Below are positions 24,084-61,880 of a DNA stretch of 64,000 nucleotides, one piece after another. Position 1 is the first letter of the stretch. Every line of letters starts with the position of its first letter. The DNA is from Vigna angularis. Lineage: Eukaryota > Streptophyta > Magnoliopsida > Fabales > Fabaceae. The notes under the pieces are model-generated. The model saw only the letters and a list, made by a program, of their open reading frames with translations, did no database searches and was not told the origin of the DNA. The position numbers and the translations under genes were made by a program. The stretch covers positions 20,813,501-20,877,500 of the forward strand of contig NC_068973.1 of the NCBI RefSeq assembly GCF_016808095.1. The letters run 5' to 3'.

Positions 24084-25415
24084 TGATGACAAATTTATGA
24101 ACACTGAAAAACGGCGCCACAAACTTGTTTAACCCTCCACAAGTATGACCGAATCGTATCAAGTAATAAACTCGGTAAGACCAAGTATCGTTCTCCCAAA
24201 GGACTCACGGCCTAGTTAGTTATCTAATTTGTTGATTATTTAAGACTTGTGAACGATTGATTGTAAGTTTTTAATGCAAAAGACAATAATTAAACATGTA
24301 TGCATGAGTTTGATCAATGGCAAAAAGAGTAAAACAAACACGTAATGAATTATATGGATGAATATGTTGTTGGGGTTATCAATTTCATCTTGTCCACTCT
24401 CATATATTTTAGGAATTCATCAATCTTTTCATCAATGTTAATGCCACTCTCTAAATTACCTTGTCAAGAAGGCCTATCCTTAATTACGAGTTCATACAAT
24501 TCCTAGCATCCCTAATAATTAATTCTGAAGTGCAGAAGCTTAACAGCAACCAATCCTCATATTCCTATGCCTAGGCAATATGCTATTGGGAGAAGTTCCC
24601 CAGATCTAGATCTCCCCGTACGTTCCCATATCGAGAAAATCAATAATCATCGCAATGAATGAGTTAAACAATGCAAGCATTAAGCAAAGAGGAAAAACCC
24701 TAACTAATGATGAAAGAAAGCATGTATCTTAAAATAAGATGTTAAAACATTAATTCCATATATGAGAGTTTCACAAGACTACATTGATTCCCCAACAACA
24801 ATACAAGGTTTAGTTCACCATATTCATGGTGAAACTAGATGAACAATAATGAAATAGTGAAAGATAGAAAAACCCTAGAAAGAGAAGAGGAGAGCCGTCA
24901 CCATCTCCCAATCTACCCCCAAGGGGTGAAAAGTGTGTTACTGCTTCCTCCCAGCCAAAGATACAAACCCTAGGAACACCTAAAGCTTATATACTATTCG
25001 TAAAATTACAGAAAAGTGGGCCTAAGCCCAAAAGTGTGCCGCTCAGCGGTAAACTACCGCTCAACGGTAAATGCGTGAGTTGATTCTTCCCCTCAGCGGC
25101 ATTTTCACCCCTCAGCGGATCCAACGTGAGTTCCTGAGTGCCGCTCAGCGGTAAACTGCCGCTAAGCGGTAGTTGCGACTTCTCCTTTTGCACTTTTTTA
25201 TGTATTTTCTGATTCCATCTCTATCCTTCTTCACTTCTTTCACTAAATTCACCTTAAAACCTGCATAAAACACTGAAATCAAGCATAAACCTGTCCAGCT
25301 CTCTTATTTCCAAAAATATGAACAAAACCATGATTCCAAGCTAGTTTCTAAGTGTTAAAGGTTGCTTTTAGTATCAATTTTAAGCATGAAAATAACAGTT
25401 TTTCAACTGTTATCA
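24084..25415 (-). repeat. 3' LTR of the outer element
   Basis: It is 1332 bases and reads TGATAACAG...TCATCA on the minus strand. The palindrome array is at 25039-25171 and has a different arrangement from that in the 5' LTR. Confidence 0.95.
25039..25171 (-). promoter_or_regulatory. CCGCTSAGCGG palindrome array, outer 3' LTR
   Basis: Six CCGCT/AGCGG-type sites are visible: two at the start separated by TAAACTA, two of the CCCCTCAGCGG form, and two at the end. The TATA-like box TATATAAG lies downstream on the minus strand near 24987. Confidence 0.8.
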
Positions 25416-25432
25416 CAACCCCAAAACTTAGA
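25416..25432 (-). promoter_or_regulatory. Polypurine tract of the outer element
   Basis: The minus strand reads CTAAGTTTTGGGGTTG immediately before the 3' LTR, matching AAGTTTGGGGTTG before the LTR at 60594. Confidence 0.7.
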
Positions 25433-26664
25433 ACTTTGCTTGTCCTCAAGCAAACAAGATGTAACTCAATCTTCTACCAATCAATACAATGGTTTACTCC
25501 ATTAAAAAATCCTCTTTCAAAATAAGTAAAAACTTCAATTAAGCTCATGACAAAGACTTCAATCAAGACATACACATGCTTTAGTGTTCACAAAGTCACT
25601 TAATATCCAACAAATGCTATTTTTCATGAATGATCAATCAACTAAGCATGGATGTTCATGTGTTCATGGAATCTTTCCTCACTAAGTAAAGTGTTTCACT
25701 CAAATACAAGTGTATAAGAGGTAATCACTCATTCGCTCTACTATCACAATGTCACATGAATTGACTTTTCCTTTCATTTAACCACAATCAAATAAATTCA
25801 CAATCATGCATCATCACAAGGACTTTTCAATGGCTTATAATGTGGCTGGGCTAACAAGAAAATTGGTTTTTCTAGATCACAAAACCCTTGAGTTAAGAGA
25901 ATCATATAAACACAATCATTCTTACTTTTCCGCAACTTTCTTTTGCATTGAGCTTTGCTTTTTCTTTTCTTTTCTTTCTCTTTTTCTTTCTCTTTTCACA
26001 TACTTAATTCTTAGCTCTTAGCTCAATGCTTTCAAATTCCCTTTCTATTTTCCAACAACCCCAAACTTGAACATTTGTCAATACCACAAAATATTTTCTA
26101 CTTAACTCAAGGTAAAGCTTTCAACAAGGGTTTTAAATTTATGTTCAAGGCTAAGGGTTCAAATGATAGAACACATAGTGTTCTCTTTTAGTGGCTTATT
26201 TCATGCAAATTGGCTAATATAAGGGCTACCAACAAACGACCTTGATCATATGATGCAAACAAGCTAGTAATTCAATCATAGAAAACCTGGGCAAAGTCAT
26301 TCATCCTTTCAAAGTAATAGCACTCAATCACAAAACTCTGGAGCTCAAAACCTCACATATAAGCTCATTCACATTTGACATACACATCCTACTTAATATC
26401 ACAATCACAATAACTTGCATTTGTTACAAAGCTTGTGAACCACCTGTATAAGCATGTAATGTGCACATCTCAACATCAATCCATATCAAAGCATCATCAA
26501 GCATTACTTATCAAACAATCACAATCATAAGCAAACCATCATAACAGATAAAGTTTCCAATTGAGTACATCAAACCCTATTCTAAAAACACAAATAAATA
26601 AGTTTAGAAAATCAAACAAAAACATCAGTCCTGCTTTAGTTATGATAACATTCATCATGAAATG
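25433..26664 (-). other. 3' untranslated region of the outer element
   Basis: This is noncoding sequence of about 1.2 kb, closely matched by 41016-42180 (minus strand) and 59400-60593 (plus strand). It includes an A/G-rich run on the minus strand near 25960-26000. Confidence 0.75.
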
Positions 26665-27939
26665 CTATCTCAGCTCCTCATCAATCTGAGCTGTCATCTG
26701 TATCGTCCTCTTCTTCCTCATCTTCAGCATCCTCAAATGCATCATCCTCATCATTATCAGCATTATCTTTTCATCCATCTCCATAGCTGAAGCTTCAGCT
26801 GCTTCAACTCTATCTCCTTGTACCTGCTCTTCTGGCCAGGCTACCACATTATGAAACTCCTCCATAGTCCACCTGTGTGCTGGAGGTGTATCATACATTC
26901 CAACAATCATCTCAGTAGTGGCCACCTGCCCTCTATGGATAGACTGTAACTGTGCACCTATAAGAGACATGTACATGTCCCTCATCTGGAAAGGTTCTGC
27001 TTCATGTGTCTCAGCAAATGCCTGACTCTATGCTTGCCCTTTTTCTCTGCGAGTACGGCGTGGTGGAACTGGCTGAGCTGCCTCCTCACCTCCACAGTAT
27101 TGTCTATAATAGGCCTCATCAATTGCTTTCCTTGGCCTTTCAAATGGTGGAGCAGAAGTATCCACCCCAGCTATCTTACAGAGGTGTGTAATCAAAGAAG
27201 GATGTCCTAAGGGTGCTTTGCTGTTTGTTGTGTTGGCACACATCCTTATCTCATCAGCTATTACCTGTCCAATATTGACATTCAAGTTCCTGATTGCACA
27301 GTAAAGGAGGAGTGCCCTACTAAGAGTGATGTCTGACACATGAGAACATGGCTGAATGTTGGCATGAGAAAATGTCATCCAATACTTTGCAAGAGAAGTC
27401 AAATCAGTCCTCCTAATGTTTACCACAGAGCCAGTTCTATTCCTTTGAAAATGTCCTCCAGGTATACATAAAACTCTCTCTACATCATCAAAATCAGTGC
27501 CTTCTTCCATACATAGAGCAAACTGGCACTGCTCACCAGCCCACACAGTGTTCAAGAAGTTGTTGATGGACTCAGGATCATACCTAATAGCATGGCCTCT
27601 GACATAGCCTAGGTAATTCTCAGCTGGATAATCACCAATCTTCCTTGCATTGGCGTAGAATTCTTTCACCACAGCTATATTGGCAGGTGTAGGATATATG
27701 GCTAGCTTCCCCCAATCATTTCCCAACAATTTCTCTCCAAATTGAGGAGCAAAGTTAGGGATCATTCCAACCTTCCTCTCCATAAAGAATCTCCTATCTT
27801 GGACCACCTTAAAGTGCTTCTCATGTTTGCGAGATAAGAACCTACTAGAATGGGGTTGTTTTGGTTCCTTTTCTTTTCTTTTGGAAGCCATGGTCTTCAT
27901 TCTTTTGCCTGAAGAGGATGCCATTCCTACATCAAACAC
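26665..27939 (-). pseudogene. ORF2: putative plant transposon protein, one in-frame stop
   Basis: The frame runs from ATG at 27939 (another ATG follows at codon 6) through about 303 residues to TAG at 27028-27030, then continues in the same frame to 26665 (about 424 codons). The N-terminus is basic (SSGKRMKTMASKRKEKEP). The middle carries FYANARKIGDYPAENYLGYV, HAIRYDPESINNFLN, DIT and LLLYCAIRNLNVNIGQVIAD, and HPSLITHLCKIAGV, the style of the 'putative plant transposon protein' domain found in many legume gypsy elements. The tail after the stop is acidic. It occupies the position of the env-like gene of Athila elements, but no convincing membrane segment is visible. Its role is unknown. Confidence 0.7.
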
Positions 27940-28792
27940 AGATTACAAAACCACAAAACCTTTTGTTAATCATTAGTAAACCATAAACAACACCTTATTT
28001 CGAAGCTAAACCACCGCTGAGGGTCAAAATCACCCCTCAGCGCCACCAGCATAGTAATCCAGTACACAACTCAGCAAAAACAACATGTCTGTCAGAGTGC
28101 CGCTCAGCGGCAGTTTACCCCTGAGCGGTGACTCTGCAGATTTTTGAAAAATGCATTTTTAACCTGTCCTAACTCCACCCACATGCACTTTTCAGTTTTC
28201 CAGATCACAATCATTCAGTTTAATCGGTTCAAACATCAATTAAATCATCAAATCATGCATAGAGATCAAAACCCCTAAAAATTCATGCTTTAACAAACAA
28301 ATTCAAACTTAAGAACCCTAGAATGAAAAATGCTTGACTTACTTGGGTGGAGATGCTAGATGAATGGAGAATGCTTTCAAGCTTATGATGCTCTCTTCCA
28401 ACCCCAAACTTAGATGGAAAACTAGTGATAAAGTGAGTGAAAGGGAAATTTTCTCAAGAGAGATGACGAAAAAATTGTAGAGAACCTTGAAAAAGTATGT
28501 AGGAGTGTGTGTGCAGAGAAGAGTCTAAAAAGAGAAACCAATGCGCAGCTTAGGGTATAAAAATACCCTAATGGGCTCGGGTTCCGCTAAGGGGCAACCT
28601 AAGCCCAGTCTGCGACACTACCGCTCAGCGGCACTTACGGGAAGTGCTCTCCTTCTCCTTAGCTTAACCTAAATGCGTCCTAAACATACCCCTCACTGGC
28701 TCCCTGCAATAAAATTCTCAGATCACTCATGCACAACCCTATTATGTAACTAAAACAGAATCAAAACAAACAATACAGATAAAAGCAATCAA
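27940..28792 (-). promoter_or_regulatory. Putative internal promoter region upstream of ORF2
   Basis: On the minus strand, CCGCTCAGCGG-type palindromes near 28619-28632 are followed by the TATA-like GTATTTTTATACC near 28555-28567, then by pyrimidine-rich leader text. More palindromes lie at 28013-28130 just before the ORF2 start. The order palindrome then TATA copies the layout of the LTR promoter. The same block is kept at 59100-59230, although ORF2 is lost there. Confidence 0.5.
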
Positions 28793-28840: not shown

Positions 28841-28849
28841 AAAATCCTC

Positions 28850-29098: not shown

Positions 29099-29106
29099 AA
29101 TAAAGC

Positions 29107-30964: not shown

Positions 30965-31899
30965 TGTTGGTATCAGAGGGGGTATTTGTCGAAGAGTATA
31001 GTGCAGCGGAATTAAAACTCAGAGAGCGGAAAGCGTGTTCGATCACAATTAAAAATAATTTGGTCCTTTTAGTAAAAATAATTTTCTTTCACAAAATTAA
31101 TCAAACAGTTGATATACGTAAAATAATATGAGTGTAGGGAATGGAAAAATCACACAGATATTTTTATACTGGTTCGATTCAACAGAATCTATGTCCAGTC
31201 GTTAATCACTATAAATAGTGATTAACAGTTCCACTAAAAATGGTTTAACAGATTACAATCAAATGAACAGGAATAAAACGAAAAGAACCACTCTACCAAC
31301 TTGAAGAGAACCGCTCCGACAATCGACCAACGATTCGCAAGCTTCTCCTTTCACAAGACCAGGCAGAGTACCTTGCTAACTTGAAGAGAGTCTGCTCCGA
31401 CTATCGACACACGATACGCAAGCCTCTCCTTTCACAAGACCAAGCAAGGGAACAATGAACAAAAAGCTCTCTAAGAACGTTCCTCTGACACACAGTGTTC
31501 TAAGCTTTCTTAGTTCAAAAAACGTTACCTTCTGATTTCTCCAAATCAAATTATATAGCCAAGTAAACTGAATGCCAAAGGTCAGCTCCCAACTGCCATG
31601 AATAATCGATTATTGTAAGTGATAATCGATTATTCAAGTCCATTACAGAGTTTTCAAAAAAGTGATAATCGATTATATGAAGTGATAATCGATTATTCAA
31701 GTATGACTTGTGATAATCGATTATTGCTTAACCATAATCGATTATACTAGTAAAAATTACAGTGTTTAACATTTTCCTACTACATTCAAAATCTACAAGT
31801 TGCTTTTTTTAAATATTTTCCTACTACATCCAAAATCTATAAGTTGCAGCATCATCAAAACACATCTTCAGGTTTTACCAGTACTCCTTATTGGTAACA
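30965..31899 (-). repeat. 3' LTR of the copia element
   Basis: It is 935 bases and contains six near-perfect copies of the palindrome ATAATCGATTAT at about 31600-31750. Confidence 0.95.
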
Positions 31900-31985
31900 A
31901 TCTCCCCCTTATATTTCTTTCCTTAATCCTCCCCTTATATTTCTTCTCCCCCTTTTTTATCATAAGCAAAAAGAATAATGGAATA
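31900..31985 (-). promoter_or_regulatory. Polypurine tracts of the copia element
   Basis: The minus strand reads ATATAAGGGGGAGAT directly before the 3' LTR. Further AAAGGGGGAG blocks lie at about 31945-31955 and beyond. Confidence 0.8.
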
Positions 31986-32147
31986 ACCTCCCCCTTAATA
32001 TGAGCTCCCCCTCAAAAATGGAATATATGCACAAAATAAAAGCTCATTATATTAAGAACAGAAAGGAATTACATGAAATTCATAAAGATTAAGAAACTAA
32101 ATACCATAAAGAAAATAACATAACAATCAAACTTAGAGGCCTAAAAC

Positions 32148-33419
32148 CTAGAATTCAGGACTAGGAGCACGTTCAGGAGGTGGGATATTAAGATGACCCT
32201 CGATGTTGGATAAGCGAACATCAAGATCAAGAAATTGATCAACCATGTACTCATCAACAGATCGCTGCCACTCATAAATCTCCTCAAAGTGAGTCTTTTG
32301 TGCAAGACTCATATCCTCCAACTGTTTAGATAACCTTGCAAAATGTTCTTCCATAGAAGTTGAGGAAGAGGAGGGTATGTTGGATGGTCCAGCATCAGAC
32401 GGAGCAGCAACACTTACTGGGTCAGCCATATGAGTTTCCATGTCATCATCTTCCTCTACATCAGGATGGTCATCATCTTTGTGAATAAGGACTCTGCCTC
32501 TAGTAATGAATCCTATTTGACGAAAGGTAGTATCTCCAATTTCTGATCCCACAACTTCAATAGTTTGAACGAGTTCTCCTTCAACAGTTACACCTTTGAA
32601 TTCTAAAATCCTAGAAATAAGAAGAGCATAGGGAAATTGATATGAATGGGATTTCTTGGCTTTTACCATTGTGTCAGCAATGAGAGCAGGCCAGTCGATG
32701 TGTATGTGATTTAGAATCCCATACAACAGAAGTAAATCCTGCTCAGAGCATTGAGCATGGTTGGTTGCTCTAGGACATAAAATCCAGACAATCAAGTAGT
32801 GGATCATCCTTTCTTCAACTCTAAAACCTCCAACCAGTAATTGCCTTCTATTGGTTTGCCGTTCAGGATGACGCAGGAAGGATTGAAAAGTCATCATCCT
32901 GTTGAAATCTTCTAGTCCTAAATGGACTTTGACAGCATCATCCCAGATGGGAAGTTGAGCAACATTGGTCCATACGTCATCATCTAAAATTATGCGTACT
33001 CCCTTGACCTTAGTAGATATTATCCCATCTCGATAGTGCAAGTTGAAGTAGAAGACTCTTATAAGATCAGGATAAATGCATCCTTTTTGTTCTAACAGAT
33101 GCGTTAACCCCTACTCAGCAAAAGTGTTTGGAAATTGAAAGCCATAGAAGCGGAAAAAGTCAAGACGAATAAACTTTACCGCCATGATCTTCCTTTCTTG
33201 CCAAGAATTAACAAAGTCTGCATATTTTTCTTGATCTGAAATCCATCCATCTATGTTTGCAAGACGTGGTTGAGAAGAAGAGGAGGCTCCAGCTGTTCTG
33301 CGACGGTGCCTTCTTGAGTCAGCCATGGAGGAAGAATGGGAAAATGAGATTTTGAGAAGGTGAAGAGAAATGAAGAAGATTTGAGCTCTAGATTTGATTT
33401 CAGCAGTATTTGGGTGCAA
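32148..33419 (-). pseudogene. SIRE-type extra ORF downstream of pol, one in-frame stop
   Basis: The frame runs from 33419 to a TAG at 33111-33113 and on in the same frame to 32148 (about 423 codons). The likely start is the Met before ADSRRHRRRTAG near 33324. After the basic N-terminus it has DQEKYADFVNSWQERK, HYRDGIISTKVKGVRI, LLLLYGILNHIHIDWPALIA and SYQFPYALLISRILEFKGV, then a Ser/Asp-rich and coiled-coil-like C-terminus. SIRE elements carry an 'env-like' ORF here, but no transmembrane segment is obvious. The middle resembles ORF2 of the outer gypsy element in motif order. Confidence 0.7.
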
Positions 33420-33429
33420 AGGAGTGTCT

Positions 33430-33715
33430 AATAATCGATTATGGGGGGCTATTTATAAGAAAAATGGAAAAACTAGCCGTTTATGGCCATTTATAGCCGT
33501 TATGGGATGCTCCAACGGCTCTATTTTTGAAACTGTCAACGCGATAATCGATTATGGCTCGTGATAATCGATTATCAGTTCAATAATGACTGCCCAGAAT
33601 TGCATGATAATCGATTATGCATAATGATAATCGATTATCTGCTCAAGATTTTCCAGAATTGAATTTTATGCATGAATAATCGATTATAACTTAGTGATAA
33701 TCGACTATGAAGCGT
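33430..33715 (-). repeat. ATAATCGATTAT palindrome cluster between pol and the extra ORF
   Basis: About seven copies of ATAATCGATTAT or one-base variants occur here, most preceded by TG. This is the same motif as in the LTR. Confidence 0.85.
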
Positions 33716-33756
33716 TAAGTTTACGAAAAATGCAAAAATTTGCATAGATTTTGATT

Positions 33757-33976
33757 CTAAGATATGTCTAACACTCCTAACTCTCTTCTAAGCTCAAAAA
33801 ATCTATCTTTAGGTAGAGCCTTGGTAAAGATATCAGCTAATTGATGTAAGGTATCAACATATTCAATTTGACAATCCCCCTTTTGAATATGATCTCTTAA
33901 GAAATGGTGCCTAATTTCTATATGCGTAGTTCTTGAATGCATTATGGGGTTCTTGGTCAAATTTATCGCACTAGTA
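33757..33976 (-). pseudogene. End of copia RNase H, out of frame with pol
   Basis: This segment carries the last RNase H part (SRTTHIEIRHHFLRD, LADIFTKALPKDRF) typical of copia pol C-termini. It is in a different frame from the main pol frame. The break is in an A-run near 33985-33990, where one extra A appears to have been gained, just at the third catalytic Asp region. Confidence 0.85.
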
Positions 33977-33979
33977 TTG

Positions 33980-36840
33980 TCACATTTTTAGAGGAATTTT
34001 GTCAAGGAAGATATCAAAGTCTTCCAATTGTTGTTTCATCCACAAAATTTGGGCACAACAGTTTTCAGCTGCAATATATTCAGCTTCGGTGGTAGACAAA
34101 GCTACACATGCTTGTTTCTTTGAGTGCCATGACACTAAAGAACATCCCAAGAAATGACAGGTTCCACTAGTACTTTTTCTATCAATTTTACAGCCACCAT
34201 AATCTGCATCAGAGTATCCTATTAAACTAGGTGAGGCATCAGAGGGATACCAAAGTCCAAATGAAGTAGTTCCCTTAAGATATTTTAGAATTCTCTTAAC
34301 TGCAGTCAAATGAGATTCTTTAGGATTGACTTGGTATCTAGCACATACACAAACACTCTGCATAATACCTGGTCTACTAGCAGTTAAGTATAGAAAGGAT
34401 CCTATCATGCCTCTAAACATGGTTTCATTCACTCCTTTTCCAATTTCATCCTTATCTAAATAACATGAAGTACCCATGGGTGTACTAGCTTCCTTGCAGC
34501 TATCCATACCAAATTTCCTAAGAATTTCTCTATAGTATTTAGTTTGGGAGATGAATGTTCCACCATTCATTTGTTTTATCTGTGGTCTTAAGAAAAAGTT
34601 TAACTCACCCATCATAGACATCTCAAATTCACCTTGCATTATTTTTGCAAACTCTTCACACAAAGAATCATCAGTTGACCCAAAAATGATATCATCTACA
34701 TAAACTTGCACGATTAAAATGTGTTTTCCTTCTTTCTTAATGAATAAGGTTGAATCAACCTTTCCTCTAGAAAATTCATTTTCAATTAAAAAGGTACTAA
34801 GTCTTTCATACCAAGACCTAGGTGCTTGTTTAAGACCATAAAGGGCCTTTTTCAACTTGTAAACATGATCAAGAAATTTAAAATCTTCAAAGCCAGGAGG
34901 TTGACTAACATACACTTCTTCTTTTATAAAACCATTTAAGAAAGCACTTTTTACATCCATTTGATATAGTTTAAATTTCATCAAAGATGCATATGCAAGT
35001 AATAATCTAATTGCTTCTAACCTGGCTACCGGTGCATACGTTTCATCATAATCTATACCTTCCTCTTGACAGTATCCCTTAGCAACTAGCCTTGCTTTAT
35101 TCTTTGTGATGTTTCCATCCTCATCAAGCTTGTTCCTGAATACCCATTTTGTTCCTATGACTTGGAATTCTTCTTGTTTTGGAATAAGTTCCCAAACTTC
35201 ATTCCTTTCAAATTGATTTAGCTCTTCTTGCATAGCAATGCACCACTTGTCATCTTGAAGAGCTTCCTTTATATTTTTAGGTTCTACCTGAGACACAAAA
35301 GCAATAGTTAGACAAAAATTATTTAAATTATGTCTAGTAGTTACCCCTTTTGATATATCTCCTATGATGTTGTCCAAAGATAGTCCTCTTGGTTGTTGAT
35401 AGCTTTTCGAATCAACGACTTGGGGTGTTTCTTGAAGCTCCGGAGGATAATTTTCATTTAGATACATCTCCTCAAGGGCTTCTCTTAAGTAATCCTCATC
35501 ACCTGCAATGGGTCTATTTGACTCAAGAGGATTTACCTCAAGGTATACAATCTCATCAAAGACAACATGCATTGATTCTTCAATTATCAGTGTTCTTCTA
35601 TTGAATACTCTATAAGCTTTGCTAGTCAAAGAATATCCTAGAAAAATTGCTTCATCAGATTTTGCATCAAATTTTCCAAGATTATCTTTTCCATTATTTA
35701 AGACAAAGCATTTGCATCCAAAAATTTTCAAATGAGATATATTTGGTTTTCTACCATTCAACAGTTCATATGGAGTTAATTTTAGAATTGGCCTAATAAG
35801 CATCCTATTTAACACATAAGAAGCAGTACTTACTGCATCAGCCCAAAAGTATTTTGGCACATTAGATTCATTCATAAGCGTTCTAGCTAATTCTTCTAAT
35901 GATCTATTTTTCCTTTCAACAACACTATTCTGTTGGGGAGTTCTAGGTGCAGAAAAATTATGTGCAATGCCAAATTCTTCACAAAATTTTCCAAACGATT
36001 CATTTTCAAATTCACCACCATGATCACTTCTCAAAGTTTTGATTTTCAAATCTTTTTCATTTTGAATACGTTTAGCAAAAGTTTTAAATGCTTTGAAAGC
36101 TTCACTTTTCAGAGTTAAAAAGGAAGTCCAAGTAAATCTAGAGTAATCATCAACAATTACAATAGCATAGTAGTTTCCACCAAAACTTTTAATTCTAGAT
36201 GGACCAAACAAGTCCATATGCAAAAGTTCTAAAGGTTTTGATGTTGAAATCATGCTTTTAGATGAAAATGAAGATTTGGTTTGTTTACCCTTTTGACATA
36301 CAGAACAAAGTTTATCTTTCTCAAATTTTAGTTTAGGCAAACCAATCACAAGATCCTTAAAGATTAATTTATTTAAGTGTTGCATGTGAATATGTGCAGC
36401 TCTTTTGTGCCATAGCCATGGATTTTCTTCTTTAGCAACTAAGCATGTTATACTATGACTAGATGCACTCTCAATATCAATCAAGTATATGTTATTATGC
36501 CTAACACCTTGCAAAGCAATTTCAACAGAATTTTTAAAATAAACAGTACATTTGTCACTCTCAAAAGTTACCTTGAAACCTTTGTCGCATAGTTGGCTTA
36601 TGCTTAGAAGATTATGTTTGAGGCCTTCAACGTATAAGACGTCTTTTATTGTCAAAGTGTTTCCTCCTCCAATGTTTCCAGTACCCATTATTCTGCCTTT
36701 GTTGTTATCCCCATACGTTACAAATCCTTGCTTCTTCTTCTCAAAAGAGATGAATCTTTTCTTGTCACCAGTCATGTGTCTTGAGCAACCACTGTCAAGA
36801 TACCACAGTGACTTCTTGGACTTAGATTGATCCTACAAAA
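33980..36840 (-). pseudogene. Copia pol: protease end, integrase, reverse transcriptase, RNase H
   Basis: From the Met at 36775 the frame gives 931 residues. Just upstream in the same frame is the protease active site LDSGCSRHM (near 36775-36800). Then come the GAG-pre-integrase part ([15 protein letters not shown], about 121-137), integrase with D188, D251 and E287 ([13 protein letters not shown]), reverse transcriptase with D607 and YVDD at 692-695, and RNase H with D856 and TTEAEY at 895-900. It stops at 33980 through the frameshift described for the RNase H tail. The polyprotein copies the element's RNA and inserts the DNA. Reverse transcriptase and integrase motifs are complete; the protease-gag link upstream is broken. 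Confidence 0.92.
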
Positions 36841-38534
36841 CAAGTTAGCAAGAATTTTAGGTCCCCAATCTCAATATGGGTCCTTGGGGTTAGTTTTTGC
36901 AAGTTTACATCATCTCACAACTTTAACCCAAGCATATTTGCCACTTGGAACACAAACATGTTTGATATTGCATTTGTTTGATGTGTGACCATGCTTCATA
37001 CAGTAAAAGCAACATACATCACTAATTTTATTTTTAATAAAAGTTCCTTTAACAACCCAAATTTTTTGAGTTCTTCTTACCTTGGATTTAAAATTTTGAT
37101 GCATGTTTCCATTGCTCTTATTAAGGTTTGTTTTAGCATGTGAATTAGCTTTAGTTGCCTTAGCAAGTAAGTTTTCAAGTATATCAATATCAAACATATA
37201 ACTTTTGCATGACAAGCATTCAACAGGTTCAACAGTAGCATTTGCGTCTGATAATTTAATTTCGAAGGTATTAACTCTATTTCTTAGAACAACTTCATTA
37301 TCAAGCAGTTTATCATATTTTAACTTCAATTCATTATGTTCGTTTTTTAAATTTTATGAGCAGCATTAAGTTTCTCAGATTCATTCATCTTTTCAAAGAA
37401 AGCTTTTTGTAAATCTAATTCACTAGATTCAAAGCTGGAATCGCTTACTTGACTTCTAGTTTCTTCAGAATCTGCCATAAGTCATAGATTGGCTTCTTCT
37501 TCTGTGTCACTTGAACTCGTTGAGCTAGAGGAATTATCCTCCCAAGCTATGTATGCTTTCTTTTTCCTTTGAAATTTTCTTTCCTTCTTGTCTTCACTTT
37601 TCTTGCTTTTTGGACACTCAGATTTTACGTGCCCTCTTTCTCCACAACCGAAGCACTTTACGTTTGATGGAGATTCTTGACTTTCTTTCCTATCTTTGTG
37701 AAACTTGTCCTTTCCCTTTGCTTTCATGAACTTTGCAAATTTCTTTATCATCAAGCTCATGTTTTCTTCATCATCAGAATCATCTTCTTCGATCCTCTTA
37801 GAGCTTTTTCCTTTAGATATTTCAGACTTGAAAGCTAGAGTTTTCCTTTTGCCTTGATCCTCTTCAGCAGTAAATTTCCTCAGCTCAAGTTCATGCTCAC
37901 GGAGCTTTCCAAACAAGATTGGCATTGACATCTAAGTAAGATTTTGAGACTCCGAGATGGCAGTCACCTTTGGTTGCCAAGACCTGTCCAGAGATTTCAG
38001 AATTTTCACATTAAGTTCATCAGTATCAAAAGTCTTACCCAACCCTGTTAAATGATTCACAATATGAGTGAATCGTTTTTGAACGTCAGAGATTGTTTCT
38101 CCAGGTTGCATTCTGAACATCTCATATTCCTGAATGAGAATGTTCTTCCTAGCGCGCTTCACGTCCTCTGTTCCTTCATGAGTGACTCTGAGGACTTCCC
38201 ACATTTCCTGTGTTGTCTTACACACTGAAATTCTATAAAATTCATCAAGTACAACAGCAGATGAAATTATATTGCGAGCTTTAATATCAAACTGAGCTCG
38301 TCTATTTTCTTCAGCAGTCCAATTAAAATAAGGTTTTTCAGTCTCTACACCATCAACAGTATTCATAGGAATATAAGGGCCATTTTGTACAGCTTCCCAG
38401 ATACCTCTATCAACAGACCCCATAAAAATCTCCATTCTCACTTTCCAAAAAGCATAGTTATCACCAGTAAACAATGGAGGTCTGTTAATGGAAGCACCCT
38501 CAGCATATACATGGTTTTGATTGTGACCGGCCAT
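36841..38534 (-). pseudogene. Copia gag, several stops and a frameshift
   Basis: The frame starts at ATG 38534 (MAGHNQNHVYAEG) with the UBN2-type gag part (PLFTGDNYAFWKVRMEIFM, MWEVLRVTHEGTEDVKRAR). It meets TAG at 37932-37934 and continues in frame through a Lys-rich part with a CCHC knuckle (CFGCGERGHVKSEC) and an acidic Ser-rich stretch to TGA at 37482. A frameshift near 37350 leads into the 36910-37329 segment, which holds a second Cys/His cluster (CCFYCMKHGHTSNKC). More stops follow before protease. This long gag with two knuckles fits SIRE/Maximus elements. Confidence 0.85.
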
Positions 38535-38571
38535 TTTCGCAAATATTTTTTTTGAAAAACTATCAAAGCAA

Positions 38572-38583
38572 GCTCTGATACCA
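38572..38583 (-). promoter_or_regulatory. Copia primer binding site (initiator tRNA-Met type)
   Basis: The minus strand reads TGGTATCAGAGC two bases after the 5' LTR end. Confidence 0.9.
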
Positions 38584-38585
38584 AT

Positions 38586-42215: not shown

Positions 42216-42263
42216 CTGGGTTGCCTCTCAGTAAGCACTTGTTTAACATCACGAGCCTGACCC
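42216..42263 (-). other. Hairpin module, inner element (single copy)
   Basis: It begins just after the integrase stop. The stem is weakened in this copy (CTGAGAGGCAACCCAG on the minus strand). No second copy and no CTACTGATGG repeats follow. Confidence 0.75.
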
Positions 42264-42269
42264 AGACTT

Positions 42270-44984: not shown

Positions 44985-45035
44985 GCAATACGTCGGGCTA
45001 ATACCTTTAAGATCTGATATTGACCACCCAATTGC

Positions 45036-47444: not shown

Positions 47445-47616
47445 AAAACCTTAGAATTCTTTTTTAGCACAAAAAGATATAGGAGAAGATAAAATAAAAA
47501 CAGAAAAATAAAAGCAGAAATAAAATAAAATAAAAACAGAAAAAATAAAAACAGAAATTCAAAATTAAAGTCAAAGATAATCAATAATCACACAAATTAA
47601 CCAGTTAAACCACGAG

Positions 47617-47634
47617 TCCCCAGCAACGGCGCCA
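47617..47634 (-). promoter_or_regulatory. Primer binding site, inner element
   Basis: The minus strand reads TGGCGCCGTTGCTGGGGA six bases after the 5' LTR, one base off the tRNA-Asp-type site of the young copy. Confidence 0.85.
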
Positions 47635-47640
47635 AAAACT

Positions 47641-49659: not shown

Positions 49660-50979
49660 TGATGACAAATTTATGAACACCGAAAAACGGCGCCACAAAC
49701 TTGTTTAACCCTCCACAAGTATGACCGAATCGTATCAAGTAATAAACTTGGTAAGACCAAGTATCGTTCTCCCAAAGGACTCACGGCCTAGTTAGTTATC
49801 TAATTTGTTGATTATTTAAGACTTGTGAATGATTGATTGTAAGTTTTTAATGCAAAAGACAATAATTAAACATGTATGCATGAGTTTGATCAATGGCAAA
49901 AAGAGTAAAACAAACACGTAATGAATTATATGGATGAGTATGTTGTTGGGGTTATCAATTTCATCTTGTCCACTCTCATATATTTTAGGAATTCATCAAT
50001 CTTTTCATCAATGTTAATGTCACTCTCTAAATTACTTTGTCAAGAAGGCCTATCCTTAATTACGAGTTCATACAATTCCTAGCATCCCTAATAATTAATT
50101 CTGAAGTGCAGAAGCTTAACAGTAACCAATCCTCATATTCCTATGACTAGGCAATATGCTATTGGGAGAAATTCCCCGGATCTAGATCTCCCCGTACGTT
50201 CCCATATCGACAAAATCAATAATCACCGCAATGAATGAGTTAAACAATGCAAGCATTAAGCAAAGAGGAAAAACCCTAACTAATGATGAAAGAAAGCATG
50301 TATCTTAAAATAAGATGTTAAAACATTAATTCCATATATGAGAGTTTCACAAGACTACATTGATTCCCCAACAACAATACAAGGTTTAGTTCACCATATT
50401 CATGGTGAAACTAGATGAACAATAATGAAATAGTGAAAGATAGAAAAGCCCTAAAAAGAGACGAGGAGAGCCGTCACCATCTCCCAATCTACCCCCAATG
50501 GGTGAAAAGTGTGTTACTGCTTCCTCCCAGCCAAAGATACAAACCCTAGGAACACCTAAAGCATATATACTATTCGTAAAATTACAGAAAAGTGGGCCTA
50601 AGCCCAAAAGTGTGCCGCTCAGCGGTATTTTGATCCCTCAGCGGCATTTTGATCCCTCAGCGGCATTTTGATCCCTCAGCGGATCCAACGTGAGTTCCTG
50701 AGTGCCGCTCAGCGGTAAATTGCCGCTGAGTGGTAGTTGCAACTTCTCCTTTTGCACTTTTTTATGTCTTTTTTGATTCCATCTCTATCCTTCTTCACTT
50801 CTTTCACTAAATTCACCTTATAACCTGCATAAAACACTGAAATCAAGCATAAACCTGTCCAGCTCTCTTATTTCCAAAAATATGAACAAAATCATGATTC
50901 CAAGCTAGTTTCTAAGTGTTAAAGGTTGCTTTTAATATCAATTTTAAGCATGAAAATAACAGTTTCTCAACTGTTATCA
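49660..50979 (-). repeat. 5' LTR of the outer element
   Basis: It is 1320 bases. The palindrome array at 50614-50733 contains three tandem 19-bp units (CCCTCAGCGGCATTTTGAT) starting at 50635, 50654 and 50673, which are not in the 3' LTR. The minus-strand TATA-like box is at 50562-50569. Confidence 0.95.
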
Positions 50980-55610: not shown

Positions 55611-56914
55611 TGATAACAGTTGAAAAACTGTTATTTTCATGCTTAAAATTGATATTAAAATCAACCTTTAGACTTAGAAACTAGCTTGAAATCAATGCTT
55701 TTATCTATATTTTCAGAAATAAGAGAGCTGGACAGGTTTATGCTTGATTTGAGTGTTTTTGTGCAGGTTTTGAGGTGAATTTAGTGAAAGAAGTAAAGAA
55801 GGAGAGAAGTGGAATTATAAAAGGAAGCAAAGAGTGCAAAAAGAGAAGTCGAAGGCACCGCTCAGCGGCATTGTACCGCTGAGCGGCACTCAGGAGGTTG
55901 CGGGAGTCACGCTGAGGGGCAAAATGGCCGCTGAGGGGAAGAAACGTGACGCGCACTCACCGCTGAGCGGTATTTACCGCTGAGCGGCACTTTTTGGGCT
56001 TGGGCTTTTGTAATCTTTTGTAACTCTAGAATAGTATATAAGGACTTGCACGTCCTAGGGTTAGACATCTTTGGCAGAAACGAGGCAAACACTCTCTCTT
56101 CCACCCCTTTGAAGGAGGATCTTGGATGCTCAGGCTACCTCTTCGCCTTTTTAGGGTTTATTCTTTCATACTTTCATTGTAATTCATCTAGGTTCACCAT
56201 GAATATGGTGAACTAAACCTTGTATGCTTGTTGGGGAATCAATGTAATCTCTTGAAGCTCTCATATATGGAATTTATGCTTGCATCTTAATCTAAGATTT
56301 ATGCTTTCTTTCATCATTAGTTAGGGTTTTTCCTCTTTGCTCAATGCTTGCATAGTTTAACTCATTCAATGCATGATTATTGGTTTTGTCGATACGGACA
56401 CGTACGGGGAAGTCTAGATCCGGGGAATTTCTCCCAATATTATATTGGTTGTCGTTAAGCTCCTGCACTTATGAACTAATCATTAGGAATGCTAGGAATT
56501 GTATGAACTCGTGATTAGGGAGAAGCCATCTAGAATGGTACTTTAGAGAGTGGCATTAACAATGATGATTTGAATGTTGAATTCCTAAAATGTATGAGAG
56601 TGGATGAGATGAAATTGACCCCCAACAACATATTCATTCATATATTTCATTGAAAGTGTTTATCTTTTGTCTTTGCCATTGATCAAATTTCATGCATACA
56701 TGTTTATTTTCGTCTTTTGCATAATATAATCCAAATATTTCGTTTGTAAGTCTTAGTTAATCAAGAAACCACACAACTAAACTAGGCCGTGAGTCCTTTG
56801 GGAAGAACGATACTTGGTCTTACCAAGTTTATTACTTGAACGATTCGGTCATACTTGCCAATTGTGAAACAAGTTTGTGACATCATATTTTGGTGCTTAC
56901 AAATTTGTCCATCA
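55611..56914 (+). repeat. 5' LTR of the young element
   Basis: It is 1304 bases. It contains a palindrome array at 55858-55988 and TATATAAGG at 56035-56043, directly followed by the small inverted repeat AGGACTTGCACGTCCT. Confidence 0.97.
55858..56056 (+). promoter_or_regulatory. LTR promoter of the young element
   Basis: The perfect palindrome CCGCTSAGCGG (or its half with AGGGG) occurs six times at 55858-55988. TATATAAGG lies at 56035-56043. AGGACTTGCACGTCCT at 56041-56056 sits where transcription should begin. Confidence 0.75.
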
Positions 56915-56920
56915 AGTTTT

Positions 56921-56938
56921 TGGCGCCGTTGCCGGGGA
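56921..56938 (+). promoter_or_regulatory. Primer binding site (tRNA-Asp type), young element
   Basis: TGGCGCCGTTGCCGGGGA lies six bases after the LTR. Confidence 0.9.
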
Positions 56939-56994
56939 CTCGTGGTTTAACTAGTTAATTTGTGTGATTATTGATTATCTTTGACTTTAAATTT

Positions 56995-57190
56995 GAATTT
57001 CTGTTTTTATTTTTTCTGTTTTTATTTTATTTTATTTTATTTTATTTTATTTTTCTATTTTTATTTTATTTTATTTTTCTGTTTTTATTTTATTTTATTT
57101 TTCTGTTTTTATTTTATTTTATTTTTTCTGTTTTTATTTTATTTTATTTTCTGTTTCCTATCTTCTTATCTTTTCAATTATATCCTTTGA
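56995..57190 (+). repeat. U-rich leader repeats
   Basis: Tandem steps of TTTTCTGTTTTTATTTTATT and TTTTATTTTATT occur here. Frames rich in Phe and Tyr across it are repeat products. Confidence 0.9.
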
Positions 57191-57235
57191 TTTTTTCTCT
57201 ATCTTTTTGTGCTAACAAATATTTCCTAGAGTTTT

Positions 57236-58693
57236 GTGCCTAATGTTTGCAGGATGCAATTTGGTCAAGAATTTAACTATATGGGCACTCAATTCTACCA
57301 AAGTAATCTCAACCAATGGTGGGAACCTCACTCAAGCATGGATCAAAGCCAATTTTGGCAAGCTGCCGGACAATTTGAGAACCAACCACAACAACAATGG
57401 CAGCAACAAAGCTTTAAAATCAACAAAGGGAAGCAAGAGATCTCTTCATTTAGACAAGGCATGGAGGAAACACTAGGTCACGCATGGGACAGGTACAAAA
57501 GCCTATTACGAAAGACTCCCACGCATGGATTTAACGAAGGAGAAGTAGTCCTAATCTTCCTTGGAGGTCTTGGTTCACAAACCATGATGATGCTTAACGC
57601 CTCAGCTGGAGGCAATATCAAATGGAAGACTCCAGAGGAAGCCACAGAAATAATTGAAAACATGACTACTAATGACAATAAGTGGAACAGTGAAAGAGGA
57701 GCTCCTATTCAACAAAAAGGAGTTCTACAGTTGCAATCCAATTATGCCTTGATAGCTCAGAACAAGTTAATAACTCAACAATTGGAGAATCTCACAAAGA
57801 TACTTGAACAACTGCCAAAAGAGTTAAAGACTATTGCACAGGTTCAATCACAGTTGTGTGAATTGTGTGGAGGTGACCATATAAATGGTCAGTGTGCCTT
57901 TCCAGCAGAAGCTTTGGAAGATACGAACTTCATGGCCAACCAGTTTCCGTACCGACAAGGGAACTTCAATCAAGGGTTCAAACCACACCCAAGCATTGGT
58001 CAAGGGCAGAATGGGCAGGCTGGACAAAATGGGCAATTCAACAAGCAACAGCAACAACCAACTTTATGGCAACAGTTTTCTGCATTTAATGAAAGGTTCG
58101 TAAAGATGGAAGAAACTCTTAATCAATTTATGCAGAAAACTGAATCTTCTCAAAAGAGCACTGAAGCTACTATTAAGAACTTGACGATTCAAATGGGGCA
58201 GATTACCAAGCAGTTGGAAGAAAGGCCTGACACGGATTTTGGGGCTAATACTGAGGTTAACCCCAGGGAAGAGTGTCAAGAGCTAGTGAGTGTAAATGTT
58301 GAAAAAGTTGAGTTGGAAAAAGAAGAGAGAAAAGAGAGAGAAGAGAAAATTTGTGTGAAGATTGAGAAGGTGAGTAGAAAAAGAAAAGAAAAAAAGAAAG
58401 TGAGAGAAAAGAAAAAGAGGACGAGAGAAAAAAAGAAAGAATCATATGAAAAACCTCTTCCTCATCCAAAGAAGTATCATAGGAAGGAAAATAAATTTAA
58501 GTGCTTCATGGAAATCTTCAAGAAATTGGAGATTAAAGTTCCTATGATTGAGACACTACAACAGGTTCCTGGTTTGATCAAATTTCTGAAGAAGTTCAGT
58601 AGAAAGAAGAAAAAGAAGATGGAACATGAGCTTTATTGGGTCAAGCTAGTGACGTTAAAAGAGCGCTTGCTGGGAGGCAACCCAGTGATTTAA
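57236..58693 (+). CDS. Shortened Athila-type gag, young element
   Basis: One open frame of 485 residues. The first 60 residues are Gln/Asn-rich (FGQEFNYMGTQFYQSNLNQW) and do not match the other gags. From about residue 62 (NKGKQEISSFRQGMEETLG) it matches their C-terminal capsid part, then has the Cys/His knuckle CELCGGDHINGQC, a Gln-rich linker and a Lys/Glu/Arg-rich tail. It runs on into the first hairpin module and stops at 58691-58693. The capsid N-terminal half and all of protease are deleted, yet the frame is open throughout. If translated, it could only act with proteins from a complete relative. Confidence 0.75.
   Translation: MPNVCRMQFGQEFNYMGTQFYQSNLNQWWEPHSSMDQSQFWQAAGQFENQPQQQWQQQSFKINKGKQEISSFRQGMEETLGHAWDRYKSLLRKTPTHGFNEGEVVLIFLGGLGSQTMMMLNASAGGNIKWKTPEEATEIIENMTTNDNKWNSERGAPIQQKGVLQLQSNYALIAQNKLITQQLENLTKILEQLPKELKTIAQVQSQLCELCGGDHINGQCAFPAEALEDTNFMANQFPYRQGNFNQGFKPHPSIGQGQNGQAGQNGQFNKQQQQPTLWQQFSAFNERFVKMEETLNQFMQKTESSQKSTEATIKNLTIQMGQITKQLEERPDTDFGANTEVNPREECQELVSVNVEKVELEKEERKEREEKICVKIEKVSRKRKEKKKVREKKKRTREKKKESYEKPLPHPKKYHRKENKFKCFMEIFKKLEIKVPMIETLQQVPGLIKFLKKFSRKKKKKMEHELYWVKLVTLKERLLGGNPVI
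58638..58686 (+). other. Hairpin module, first copy, young element
   Basis: GGGTCAAGCTAGTGACGTTA, then AAAGAGCGCTTG and CTGGGAGGCAACCCAG. The last part can form a 5-bp stem with an AGGCAA loop. Confidence 0.85.
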
Positions 58694-58779
58694 GAACTTT
58701 TAATTTTTGGTTTGGTGATGTAATTTTGAACTTTTGGGTATTTTTGTTTTTGTTATAAGTTTGTTGCAGGGTTTACATC

Positions 58780-58890
58780 TACTGATGGATGTTAGGCGGA
58801 AGAGTATCTACTGAAGGATACTATGTTTGTATACACCTACTGATGGGTGTTGGTAAGAAAGATTTGCATCTACTGAAGGGTGCTGGAGGA
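58780..58890 (+). repeat. CTACTGATGG repeats, young element
   Basis: Four degenerate copies lie between the two hairpin modules. Confidence 0.8.
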
Positions 58891-58894
58891 TTTT

Positions 58895-58943
58895 GGGTCA
58901 GGCTCGTGACGTTAAACAAGCGCTACCTGGGAGGCAACCCAGT
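58895..58943 (+). other. Hairpin module, second copy, young element
   Basis: GGGTCAGGCTCGTGACGTTA, then AACAAGCGCTAC and CTGGGAGGCAACCCAG. Confidence 0.85.
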
Positions 58944-59094
58944 TGATTAATTTTTCTATATAACTTTTGTTTTGATCCTGCTTTAGTTGCATAATAGGGT
59001 TGTGCATGAGTGATTTGAGAATTTTATTGCAGGGAGCCAATAAGGGGTATGTTTAGGATGCATCTAGGTCAAGCTAAGAAGGAGAGCACTTCCC

Positions 59095-59260
59095 GCAAGT
59101 GCCGCTGAGCGGCAAACTACCGCTGAGCGGTAGTATCGCAGAAGGGGCTTGGGTTGCCCCTTAGCGGAACCTGAGCCCATTTGGGGTATTTTTATACCCT
59201 AAGTTGCGCCTTGGCCTCTCTTTTTAGATTCTTCTATGCACACACTCCTACATACTTTTC
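59095..59260 (+). promoter_or_regulatory. Putative internal promoter retained without ORF2
   Basis: Two CCGCTGAGCGG palindromes (59102-59138) and a CCCCTTAGCGG half-site precede the TATA-like GGTATTTTTATACC near 59184-59197. A pyrimidine-rich stretch follows. In the outer element the same block leads to ORF2; here it leads straight to the 3' region. Confidence 0.5.
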
Positions 59261-59399
59261 CAAGGTTTTCTACAACTTTTTCCTCACCCCTCTTGAGAAA
59301 ATCTTCCTTTCATTCACTTGCTCACTAGTTTTCCATCTAAGTTTGGGGTTGGGAGAGAGCATCATTGATGGGGTTGAGTTTTTCAAAGCACTAGAGTAG

Positions 59400-60593
59400 G
59401 ATTTGTTTTATCAATCACTTATGTTTGTAGAATAGGGTTTGATGTACTCAATTGGAAATTTTGTCTGTTATGATGGTTTGCTTATGATTGTTGTTTGATA
59501 AGTAATGCCTGATGATGCTTTGATATTGATTGATGTTGAGAATGTGCACATTATATGCTTATACAGGTGGTTCACAAGCATTGTGAACAAATGCAAGGGT
59601 TTATGATTGTGATTATGATTCTAAGCAGGATGTTATATGTGGAATGTGAATGAGCTTATATGCGAGGTTTTGAGCTCCAGAGTTGTTATTGTTGAATACT
59701 ATTACTGTGAAAGCATGAATGACTTTGCCCAGGTTTTCTATGATTGAATTACTTGCTTGTTTGCATCATATGATCAAGGCCATTTGTTGATAACCCTTCT
59801 ATTAGCCAAATTCATAAATTGAGCCCACTAAAAGAGAACACTATGTGTTATATCCTTTGAACCTCTAGCCTTGAACATGATTTGACAACCCTTGTTGAAA
59901 AGCTTTACCTTGAGTTAAGTAGAAAATATTTTGTGGTATTAACAAATGTTCAAGTTTGGGGTTGTTGGAAAATAGAAAGGGAAATTGAAAGCATTGAGCT
60001 AAGAGCTAAGAATTAAGTATGTGAAAAGAAAAAGAAAAAGAGAAAGAAAAGAAAAGAAAAAGCAAAGCTCAATGCAAAAGAAAGTTGGGAATAAATAAGA
60101 ATGATTTTGTTTCTCTTAACTCAAGGGTTTTGTGATCTAGAAAAACCAATTTTCTTGTTAGCCCAGCCACGTTATAAGCCATTGAAAGTCCTTGTGATAA
60201 TGCATGCTTGTGAATTTATTTGATTATGGTTAAATGAAAGGCAAAGTCAATTCTTGTGACATTGTGGTAGTAGAGTGAAAGAGTGATTACCTCTTATACA
60301 CTTGTGTTTGAGTGAAACACTTTACCTAGTGAGGAGATATTCCATGAGCACATGAACATCCATGCTTAATTGATTGATCATTCATGAAAAATAGCATTTG
60401 TTGGAATTTAAATGACTTTGTGAACACTAAAACATGTGCACATCTTGATTGAACTATTGGTCTTAAGTTTGAGTGAAGTTATTACTTATCTTGAGAAAAG
60501 GATTTTGAATGAGTGAACCATCATATGAATTGGTTGGAGATGGAGTTACATTTTGTTTGCTTGAGGACAAGCAAAGTTTTAAGTTTGGGGTTG
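59400..60593 (+). other. 3' untranslated region and polypurine tract, young element
   Basis: This is about 1.2 kb of noncoding sequence shared with the other copies, ending in AAGTTTGGGGTTG directly before the LTR. Confidence 0.8.
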
Positions 60594-61880
60594 TGATAAC
60601 AGTTGAAAAACTGTTATTTTCATGCTTAAAATTGATATTAAAATCAACCTTTAGACTTAGAAACTAGCTTGAAATCAATGCTTTTATCTATATTTTCAGA
60701 AATAAGAGAGCTGGACAGGTTTATGCTTGATTTGAGTGTTTTTGTGCAGGTTTTGAGGTGAATTTAGTGAAAGAAGTAAAGAAGGAGAGAAGTGGAATTA
60801 TAAAAGGAAGCAAAGAGTGCAAAAAGAGAAGTCGAAGGCACCGCTCAGCGGCATTGTACCGCTGAGCGGCACTCAGGAGGTTGCGGGAGTCACGCTGAGG
60901 GGCAAAATGGCCGCTGAGGGGAAGAAACGTGACGCGCACTCACCGCTGAGCGGCACTTTTTGGGCTTGGGCTTTTGTAATCTTTTGTAACTCTAGAATAG
61001 TATATAAGGACTTGCACGTCCTAGGGTTAGACATCTTTGGCAGAAACGAGGCAAACACTCTCTCTTCCACCCCTTTGAAGGAGGATCTTGGATGCTCAGG
61101 CTACCTCTTCACCTTTTTAGGGTTTATTCTTTCATACTTTCATTGTAATTCATCTAGGTTCACCATGAATATGGTGAACTAAACCTTGTATGCTTGTTGG
61201 GGAATCAATGTAATCTCTTGAAGCTCTCATATATGGAATTTATGCTTGCATCTTAATCTAAGATTTATGCTTTCTTTCATCATTAGTTAGGGTTTTTCCT
61301 CTTTGCTCAATGCTTGCATAGTTTAACTCATTCAATGCATGATTATTGGTTTTGTCGATACGGACACGTACGGGGAAGTCTAGATCCGGGGAATTTCTCC
61401 CAATATTATATTGGTTGTCGTTAAGCTCCTGCACTTATGAACTAATCATTAGGAATGCTAGGAATTGTATGAACTCGTGATTAGGGAGAAGCCATCTAGA
61501 ATGGTACTTTAGAGAGTGGCATTAACAATGATGATTTGAATGTTGAATTCCTAAAATGTATGAGAGTGGATGAGATGAAATTGACCCCCAACAACATATT
61601 CATTCATATATTTCATTGAAAGTGTTTATCTTTTGTCTTTGCCATTGATCAAATTTCATGCATACATGTTTATTTTCGTCTTTTGCATAATATAATCCAA
61701 ATATTTCGTTTGTAAGTCTTAGTTAATCAAGAAACCACACAACTAAACTAGGCCGTGAGTCCTTTGGGAAGAACGATACTTGGTCTTACCAAGTTTATTA
61801 CTTGAACGATTCGGTCATACTTGCCGATTGTGAAACAAGTTTGTGACATCATATTTTGGTGCTTACAAATTTGTCCATCA
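60594..61880 (+). repeat. 3' LTR of the young element
   Basis: It is 1287 bases. The palindrome array at 60841-60954 is one 17-bp unit shorter than in the 5' LTR. The TATA box is at 61001-61009. Confidence 0.97.

Follow-up and report, generated by a model that had tools for sequence, protein, structure and literature searches.

Why should a plant retrotransposon carry one short palindrome at two places, upstream of the promoter in its long terminal repeats (LTRs) and again in its interior? This question is raised by a 64,000-nucleotide (nt) stretch of the adzuki bean (Vigna angularis) genome, hereafter the window (C4:20813501-20877500 of a 448-Mb assembly, in which all genome-wide counts were taken). 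Four LTR elements were resolved in the window by self-BLAST and inspection of flanks. Three are of the Athila type, namely, E1 (24084-50979, minus strand; LTRs at 24084-25415 and 49660-50979), E2 (39729-48945, minus strand, nested inside E1), and E3 (55611-61880, plus strand), delimited by self-BLAST, target-site duplications (TSDs), and domain searches. The fourth, E4 (30965-39498, minus strand), is a Sirevirus-like copia element, also nested inside E1 and identified by its RVT_2 and rve domains, AGGGGGAG repeats, and TSD; as an unrelated element, it serves as an internal comparison. The Athila-type elements carry arrays of the 11-base palindrome CCGCTSAGCGG. We put at roughly 0.7 the probability that these elements have two RNA polymerase II (Pol II) promoters, one in the LTR and one ahead of an extra open reading frame (ORF2), that share this palindrome as one regulatory site. 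What the extra "env-like" ORF does in plant retrotransposons has long been asked, and this system would offer a sharp handle on it: a single protein and a single 11-base site at two promoters, in thousands of natural copies, with the E4-type family and its different motif as a specificity control.

Arrays of the palindrome precede the LTR promoter box

Exact CCGCTSAGCGG occurs 20 times in the window (versus 0 in 100 shuffles), and 47 sites are found at two or fewer mismatches (versus 2.0 expected). Genome-wide, the exact palindrome lies at 11,010 places and its reversed control at 9. Sites followed 35 to 65 bases downstream by the LTR-type box TATATAAG gave 2,763 matches (a single LTR may score twice), and those followed at the same distance by the internal-type box GGTATTTTTATAC gave 555, with 0 for the control in each case. 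These counts exclude a chance origin of the sites. They also bear out the palindromes described in the original prediction, made from this sequence alone. Of 134 CCGCT-N-AGCGG sites from the window and loci L005-L037, a count in which overlapping loci were kept, 133 have C or G as their centre base.

All six Athila-type LTRs in the window hold five or six sites (at two or fewer mismatches) at LTR positions 247-371, of which 2 to 4 per LTR are exact; the original figure of four to six sites per LTR stands with near-matches included but not for exact sites. The sites mostly form pairs, with a spacing of about 18 bases inside a pair and of about 51 from one pair to the next, the E1 5′ LTR being the deviating copy, and the middle sites are as a rule asymmetric (CCGCTGAGGGG or similar). 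In five of the six LTRs, TATATAAG follows at LTR positions 408-427, and the arrays sit approximately 45 to 180 bases upstream of it, close to the spacing of 50 to 180 bases first proposed; in the E1 5′ LTR, the box reads TATATATG instead.

On the minus strand, the E1 3′ LTR array (25039-25169; six sites, two exact) precedes TATATAAG at 24986-24993, and the E1 5′ LTR array (50615-50733; six sites, two exact) precedes TATATATG. The E2 arrays, likewise on the minus strand, lie at 40656-40769 in the 3′ LTR (five sites, three exact) and 48568-48699 in the 5′ LTR (six sites, two exact), each with TATATAAG downstream. In E3, on the plus strand, the 5′ LTR array (55858-55987; six sites, four exact) is followed by TATATAAG at 56035, and the 3′ LTR array (60841-60953; five sites, three exact) is one 17-base unit short of its partner. 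Apart from this one palindrome unit, two substitutions separate the LTRs of E3; between those of E2 there are 18 substitutions and a difference of one 18-base unit.

An internal box with the same palindromes leads to ORF2

The internal sites of the original prediction were confirmed in both elements. In E3, the internal unit (59102-59198, plus strand) has palindromes starting at 59102, 59120, and 59157 (together 59102-59167) before a box at 59185-59198, with no ORF2 downstream. In E1, it spans 28554-28631 on the minus strand, with palindromes at 28621-28631 and 28584-28594 (the latter with two mismatches) before the box GGTATTTTTATACC at 28554-28567. As had been proposed, the E1 box leads to ORF2 (27924-27031, minus strand), by way of a predicted intron in the 5′ untranslated region (5′-UTR) at 27927-28342 (donor CAA/GTAAGT, acceptor GATGTAG/G). 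This predicted intron holds further palindromes, at 28014-28043 and 28100-28128, which were absent from the earlier list.

To describe the unit in other copies, we used the first 30 box loci listed on contig C1, which were chosen by site plus box, so that the first site is given. One to three internal sites begin 27 to 83 bases before the box, near −80, −63, and −27 in many loci; L027 has a single site within two mismatches. ORF2 lies within 1.5 kb of the box in 18 of the 30. All 18 have a second palindrome cluster between +438 and +621 of the box, and the same 18 have the donor CAA/GTAAGT at +225 or +233. The ORF2 ATG is found at +598 to +721 in 16 of them, L011 and L032 having only a later ATGGC, and an acceptor (TGTAG or TGCAG) abuts the ATG in the copies whose sequence was printed. 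Because donor and acceptor signals bracket it, the second cluster is probably intronic. In its arrangement, the internal unit resembles a small Pol II gene with a leader, a predicted intron, and an ORF2 start.

Five loci (L014, L022, L025, L027, and L030) lack most of the intron; since the edges mismatch the predicted splice sites, these loci do not count as evidence of spliced retrocopies. Three other arrangements were observed among the copies. Within the predicted ORF2 intron of L028 (957-1069 of the locus as stored), seven CCGCTSAGCGG sites follow each other with a 17-base period. L007 and L008 (C1 31.151-31.155 Mb) hold two opposed internal boxes about 0.6 kb apart. L036 and L037 (C1 31.205-31.2595 Mb) are compact elements consisting of LTR, internal box, ORF2, and LTR, with a tandem LTR-ORF2-LTR-ORF2 order in L037.

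Both ORF2 and the internal sites are conserved

ORF2 of E1 (27031-27924, minus strand; open up to an in-frame stop at 27028-27030) encodes a protein, P0013, in which PF20167 (Transposase_32) is the sole Pfam model above cut-off. Its N-terminus is basic, with 15 lysine or arginine residues among the first 50. Among the 20 best PF20167 loci, the ORF2 proteins are 67 to 91% identical to P0013, and a CCGCT-type site (two or fewer mismatches) is present in 19 of them, the exception being L041.

The ratio of nonsynonymous to synonymous substitution rates (dN/dS) was calculated over residues 30-245 of P0013 for 23 copies from 38 sources, some overlapping, after exclusion of 15 sources for a stop or incomplete cover. 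The ratio falls from 0.48 at dS below 0.05, through 0.20 and 0.17 in the intermediate bins, to 0.10 at dS of 0.2 to 0.3; it is 0.076 at 0.3 to 0.5 and 0.089 above 0.5. ORF2 is under purifying selection: recent copies drift, and old lineages are constrained.

The palindromes between box and ATG were examined in 27 distinct stretches, left after removal of 4 identical copies from a set of 31; their mean pairwise identity is 0.845. Site columns have a conservation of 0.927, versus 0.845 under shifted masks, and 0 of 752 mask shifts reach the value of the sites. For CpG, which is expected to decay fastest within silenced DNA, conservation is 0.916 inside sites (18 columns) versus 0.735 outside (16 columns).

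An unrelated copia element has the same layout with a different palindrome

E4 is rich in another palindrome, ATAATCGATTAT, found 19 times in the window versus 0.01 expected. Its LTR arrays, both on the minus strand, consist of six ATAATCGATTAT at 31602-31745 in the 3′ LTR, with TATATAATTT at 31548-31557, and of four ATAATCGATTAT at 39221-39344 in the 5′ LTR, with TATATAATTT at 39167-39176. An internal unit (about 33431-33687, minus strand) has five ATAATCGATTAT at 33544-33687 and a clear TATA box, CTTATAAATAG, at 33449-33459, upstream of an extra ORF (32148-33326, minus strand) that is of PF20167 type and broken by at least one stop; one more ATAATCGATTAT lies between box and ORF. The extra ORF scores 34.1 bits for PF20167, below the cut-off of 45, and its full-length relative P0122 passes at 50.8 bits. 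Four AGGGGGAG repeats at 31902-32005 precede the E4 3′ LTR; multiple copies of the polypurine tract (PPT) at that place have been described as a Sirevirus feature (PMC2829016).

When the PF20167 alignments of Athila and of Sireviruses were compared with HHalign, the match was weak (probability, 38%; E = 3.3e-4), and their kinship therefore rests on the shared Pfam model. As read from the sequence, two unrelated retrotransposons have the layout and, at the Pfam level, the domain in common, but not the palindrome. Just past E3 on its plus side, at 61927-62028, are three more ATAATCGATTAT, perhaps of another copia remnant.

A third motif, GGCGCTSAGCGCC, occurs 640 times genome-wide versus 11 for its control. 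Both of its arms depart together from CCGCT, which fits a site bound by a dimer. In the three of 640 places that were examined (L058-L060), some Athila-like LTR sequence was present in 3/3, and L059 alone has a GGCGCTSAGCGCC array that immediately precedes the LTR-like match. In L058, an exact GGCGCTSAGCGCC site lies beyond the end of the match and two weaker sites before it; in L060, the match is 70 bases long and about 0.85 kb from the GGCGCTSAGCGCC sites. No ORF2 of this LTR family was found. In L060, GGCGCTSAGCGCC-like sites alternate with GCGCCTAGGCGC-like palindromes, and the window itself contains Athila-like LTR relatives with GGCGCTSAGCGCC-like sites at 3857-5483, 12342-12472, and 14584-14724.

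pol and ORF2 lie on separate elements in the loci sampled

Domain searches detected gag-protease (PR) and ORF2 in E1 and no match to reverse transcriptase (RT), RNase H (RH), or integrase. E2 encodes gag-PR-RT-RH-integrase, and its stretch from integrase to 3′ LTR has no internal box, no palindromes, and no ORF2. E3 carries gag and the internal box, with no RT, integrase, or ORF2 match. No Athila-type element examined thus combined RT/integrase with ORF2; those bearing the one and those bearing the other have LTRs and a 3′ region in common. The survey behind this statement covered window positions 24084-61880 and loci L005-L034, L038-L057, and L061-L069, samples that are small and partly biased. 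First-look candidates amount to 3,032 for PF20167 and 3,362 for integrase, 150 of each being scored.

Upstream of the internal box, RT, RH, or integrase was found in 0 of 50 fetched loci. The scanned stretch measured about 1.5 kb in 30 of these; in the remaining 20 it was 0.66 kb long and ended where the box is expected. In the positive control, L069, integrase was detected, also after trimming to 660 bases. Matches to gag/PR lie upstream of the box in 44 of the 50 loci, although two short ones recur in L069 and are non-discriminating; 41 of 50 have a gag/PR match where L069 has integrase, a match that in a few of them covers only a short stretch. The same place was sampled twice in at least two pairs (L018/L044 and L007/L045). 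In 8 of 8 integrase loci, integrase leads straight on to the sequence that in E1 lies behind ORF2, with the LTR coming next; these eight are the best matches to the E2 integrase, one being E2 itself, and lean toward E2-like elements. The 12 listed C1 integrase matches were compared by eye with the listed boxes, and a box was found no more than 1 kb downstream of a single one. This is L069, in which integrase and internal box are both present and ORF2 is deleted. L069 rules out a perfect split between pol and the internal promoter; that between pol and ORF2 stands. The sense ORF before the 3′ LTR is ORF2 in E1, and pol and ORF2 occur together at no locus examined. An element carrying both may exist. 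If true genome-wide, the split would be an unusual mode of cooperation for retrotransposon families.

Proposed mechanism and alternatives

These features can be assembled into the following scheme. A dimeric nuclear DNA-binding protein would read CCGCT-S-AGCGG and thereby open or activate two promoters. The five or six sites in U3, before the LTR TATA box, would drive genomic RNA, and the internal TATA-like box would start an ORF2 mRNA from which the 5′-UTR intron is removed ahead of the ATG. We regard transcription from the internal box as likely, and binding of one protein to both LTR and internal arrays as only slightly less so. At somewhat less than even odds, the binder may be ORF2 itself, a self-encoded activator or anti-silencing factor working on partner LTRs; its product would then act in trans on elements without ORF2, pol-bearing ones included. 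ORF2 is a reasonable candidate because its N-terminus is basic and a sunflower relative is predicted to be nuclear (PMC11728184). A self-encoded factor is also favoured by the divergence of the motif between families that have a PF20167 ORF in common.

Several observations weigh against this scheme. The shift test and dN/dS use kin copies, some near-identical or overlapping, which are hence non-independent events. The internal box is TATA-like rather than a perfect TATA. Domain searches recognized no DNA-binding domain in PF20167, AlphaFold models are poor (mean pLDDT, the predicted local distance difference test, of 44.1 for P0013 and 43.4 for P0122, the Sirevirus-type PF20167 protein), and profile searches against solved structures returned a single match apiece (E = 0.52 and 0.56). 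Furthermore, ORF2 is missing from the 1.5 kb next to the box in 12 of the 30 loci, so that the box outlives the gene. The original proposal of two promoters is partly supported: it gains from the gene-like unit behind the box in many copies and from sites conserved beyond their surroundings.

The missing DNA-binding domain also speaks for a host transcription factor as the binder, in which case the elements would merely have accumulated a host site and ORF2 would have, for example, an envelope-like or packaging role. Onsen uses heat-shock elements in this way. Comparison of Sirevirus motifs with known plant sites, moreover, gave mainly stress-factor sites (PMC2829016). However, the first 25.9 Mb of contig C1 contain only 13 of the 11,010 sites, with 11 grouped in three clusters (a count of sites alone, gene content being unchecked), and the motif varies by family: CCGCTSAGCGG in Athila, ATAATCGATTAT in copia, and GGCGCTSAGCGCC near Athila-like LTR sequence. 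Family-specific motifs therefore fit element-specific factors better than one host factor, a serious contender that we nonetheless consider rather unlikely. Less probable again is the expression of ORF2 solely through spliced genomic RNA with a donor near the 5′ LTR, the internal box being no promoter; such splicing has been proposed for other env-like genes of plants. Splicing has been reported for Bagy2 (PMC7264820), acceptors have been predicted for BAGY2 and Athila (PMC2829016), and an acceptor-like sequence abuts the ORF2 ATG in the printed copies. Yet a donor lies merely 225 or 233 bases past the box in the 18 loci, the palindromes recur immediately before that box, and the layout recurs in copia E4, where the TATA box is a good one.

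The arrays might also be functionless relics, inherited and spread by element amplification and local duplication. Copies of a single family share descent, and units are indeed gained and lost in steps of 17 to 18 bases, as in the LTR pairs of E3 and E2 and the sevenfold run of L028. Against this, the site columns beat every shifted placement despite their richness in mutable CpG, and unrelated elements, the Athila type and copia E4, put different palindromes at the same two positions; relics have, in our judgment, a low probability. That the palindromes act at the RNA level, folding into small hairpins of the 3′ U3 and genomic RNA, is the faintest of these prospects. By reasoning, without folding, CCGC-TSA-GCGG could make a four-pair stem, but that of ATAATCGATTAT would be very weak; in addition, one cluster lies within a predicted intron, and the LTR arrays lie upstream of the TATA box.

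Beyond shared regulation of the two Athila promoters, a wider and doubtful extension may be considered. PF20167 proteins could be element-encoded palindrome readers common to Athila and Sireviruses, forming a positive-feedback anti-silencing switch, with the retrotransposon split into enzyme and regulator elements. Each family's own palindrome would mark both its LTR promoter and that of the reader gene, and a reader encoded by pol-less elements would serve, in trans, those pol-bearing partners whose LTRs carry the same arrays.

Relation to known systems

The closest likeness is to the repeated motifs of Sireviruses, which are palindromes before TATA and before env, lacking in the other Ty1/copia elements compared; that comparison was made against Ty1/copia, not Athila (PMC2829016). 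The many palindromes there lie mostly in the first LTR half before TATA, with extra ones before the env-like gene, a layout met here in the Athila type and in E4. An internal env promoter was suggested for Sireviruses and not conclusively identified (Bousios et al. 2010, PMC2829016). The Inga motif AGCGGTASTACCGCT has the same half-site letters as the Athila palindrome, and the E4 ATAATCGATTAT resembles the exceptional Tnd-1 motif (PMC2829016). In contrast, the elements described here are Ty3/gypsy of the Athila type, E4 alone being copia, and the Athila core CCG...CGG has its half-sites reversed relative to CGG-CCG (PMC2829016). Here, moreover, the internal unit is marked out by a box, a leader, and a predicted intron, and no element examined had both pol and ORF2. 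The layout is thus known from Sireviruses, and its occurrence in Athila appears to be new: we found no earlier report of the two-position layout in Athila in the literature searched, and among the 20 papers listed, of 158 containing the literal motif, no title concerns retrotransposons.

Grande of maize also has, judging from the title of the report, an accessory gene in the 3′ internal region with its own promoter, although it is a different element; Gomez-Orte et al. in 2013 reportedly described a nuclear protein encoded by this gene. We know of no palindrome that it has in common with the present elements.

The VANC/VANDAL system of Arabidopsis likewise combines an element-encoded protein with arrays of a short motif in noncoding upstream regions and introns (the intron here being predicted), with unit gain and loss, reported there by tandem duplication, and with motifs that differ among related families (PMC5735166). 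VANDALs, however, are DNA transposons for which VANC binding and demethylation have been demonstrated (PMC5735166), whereas PF20167, whose candidate role here is to bind the palindrome, appears to be a different protein family. The sunflower Athila aORF(+) shares the PF20167 Transposase_32 domain, and its protein is predicted to localize to the nucleus; no regulatory sites are described in the available text (PMC11728184). Whether Athila env-like ORFs modulate the epigenetic landscape of their elements has been said to remain to be investigated (PMC12844716).

Structure and placement of the elements

Insertions E2 and E4 interrupt E1. Each element is flanked by a 5-base target duplication (E1, ATAGG; E2, GAAAC; E3, GCAAT; E4, CATGC), and the Kimura two-parameter (K2P) divergence between the LTRs of a pair is 0.032 for E1, 0.014 for E2, 0.002 for E3, and 0.023 for E4. 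The Ty3 pol order, with RT before integrase, was found in E2 (RVT_1, RT_RNaseH, Integrase_H2C2, and rve in a single frame). E1 and E3, in which no pol matches were found, were placed with Ty3/gypsy through the LTRs and gag that they have in common with E2. In all three, the LTR end is followed by AGTTT and then by TTGGCGCCGTTG... at a position like that of a primer-binding site (PBS). Calypso and Diaspora have a tRNA-Asp PBS at a 5-base offset from the LTR (PMC1142308). The present elements resemble the Athila/Calypso/Diaspora group in the Ty3 gene order and may do so in a putative PBS of this type 5 bases past the LTR; most members of that group have a sense ORF after pol, and an env-less Diaspora exists (PMC1142308). 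Palindrome arrays or an internal promoter are not mentioned in the available part of that report (PMC1142308). Outside the elements, the window contains a tandem repeat at 62521-62747, with a period of 46 and about five copies.

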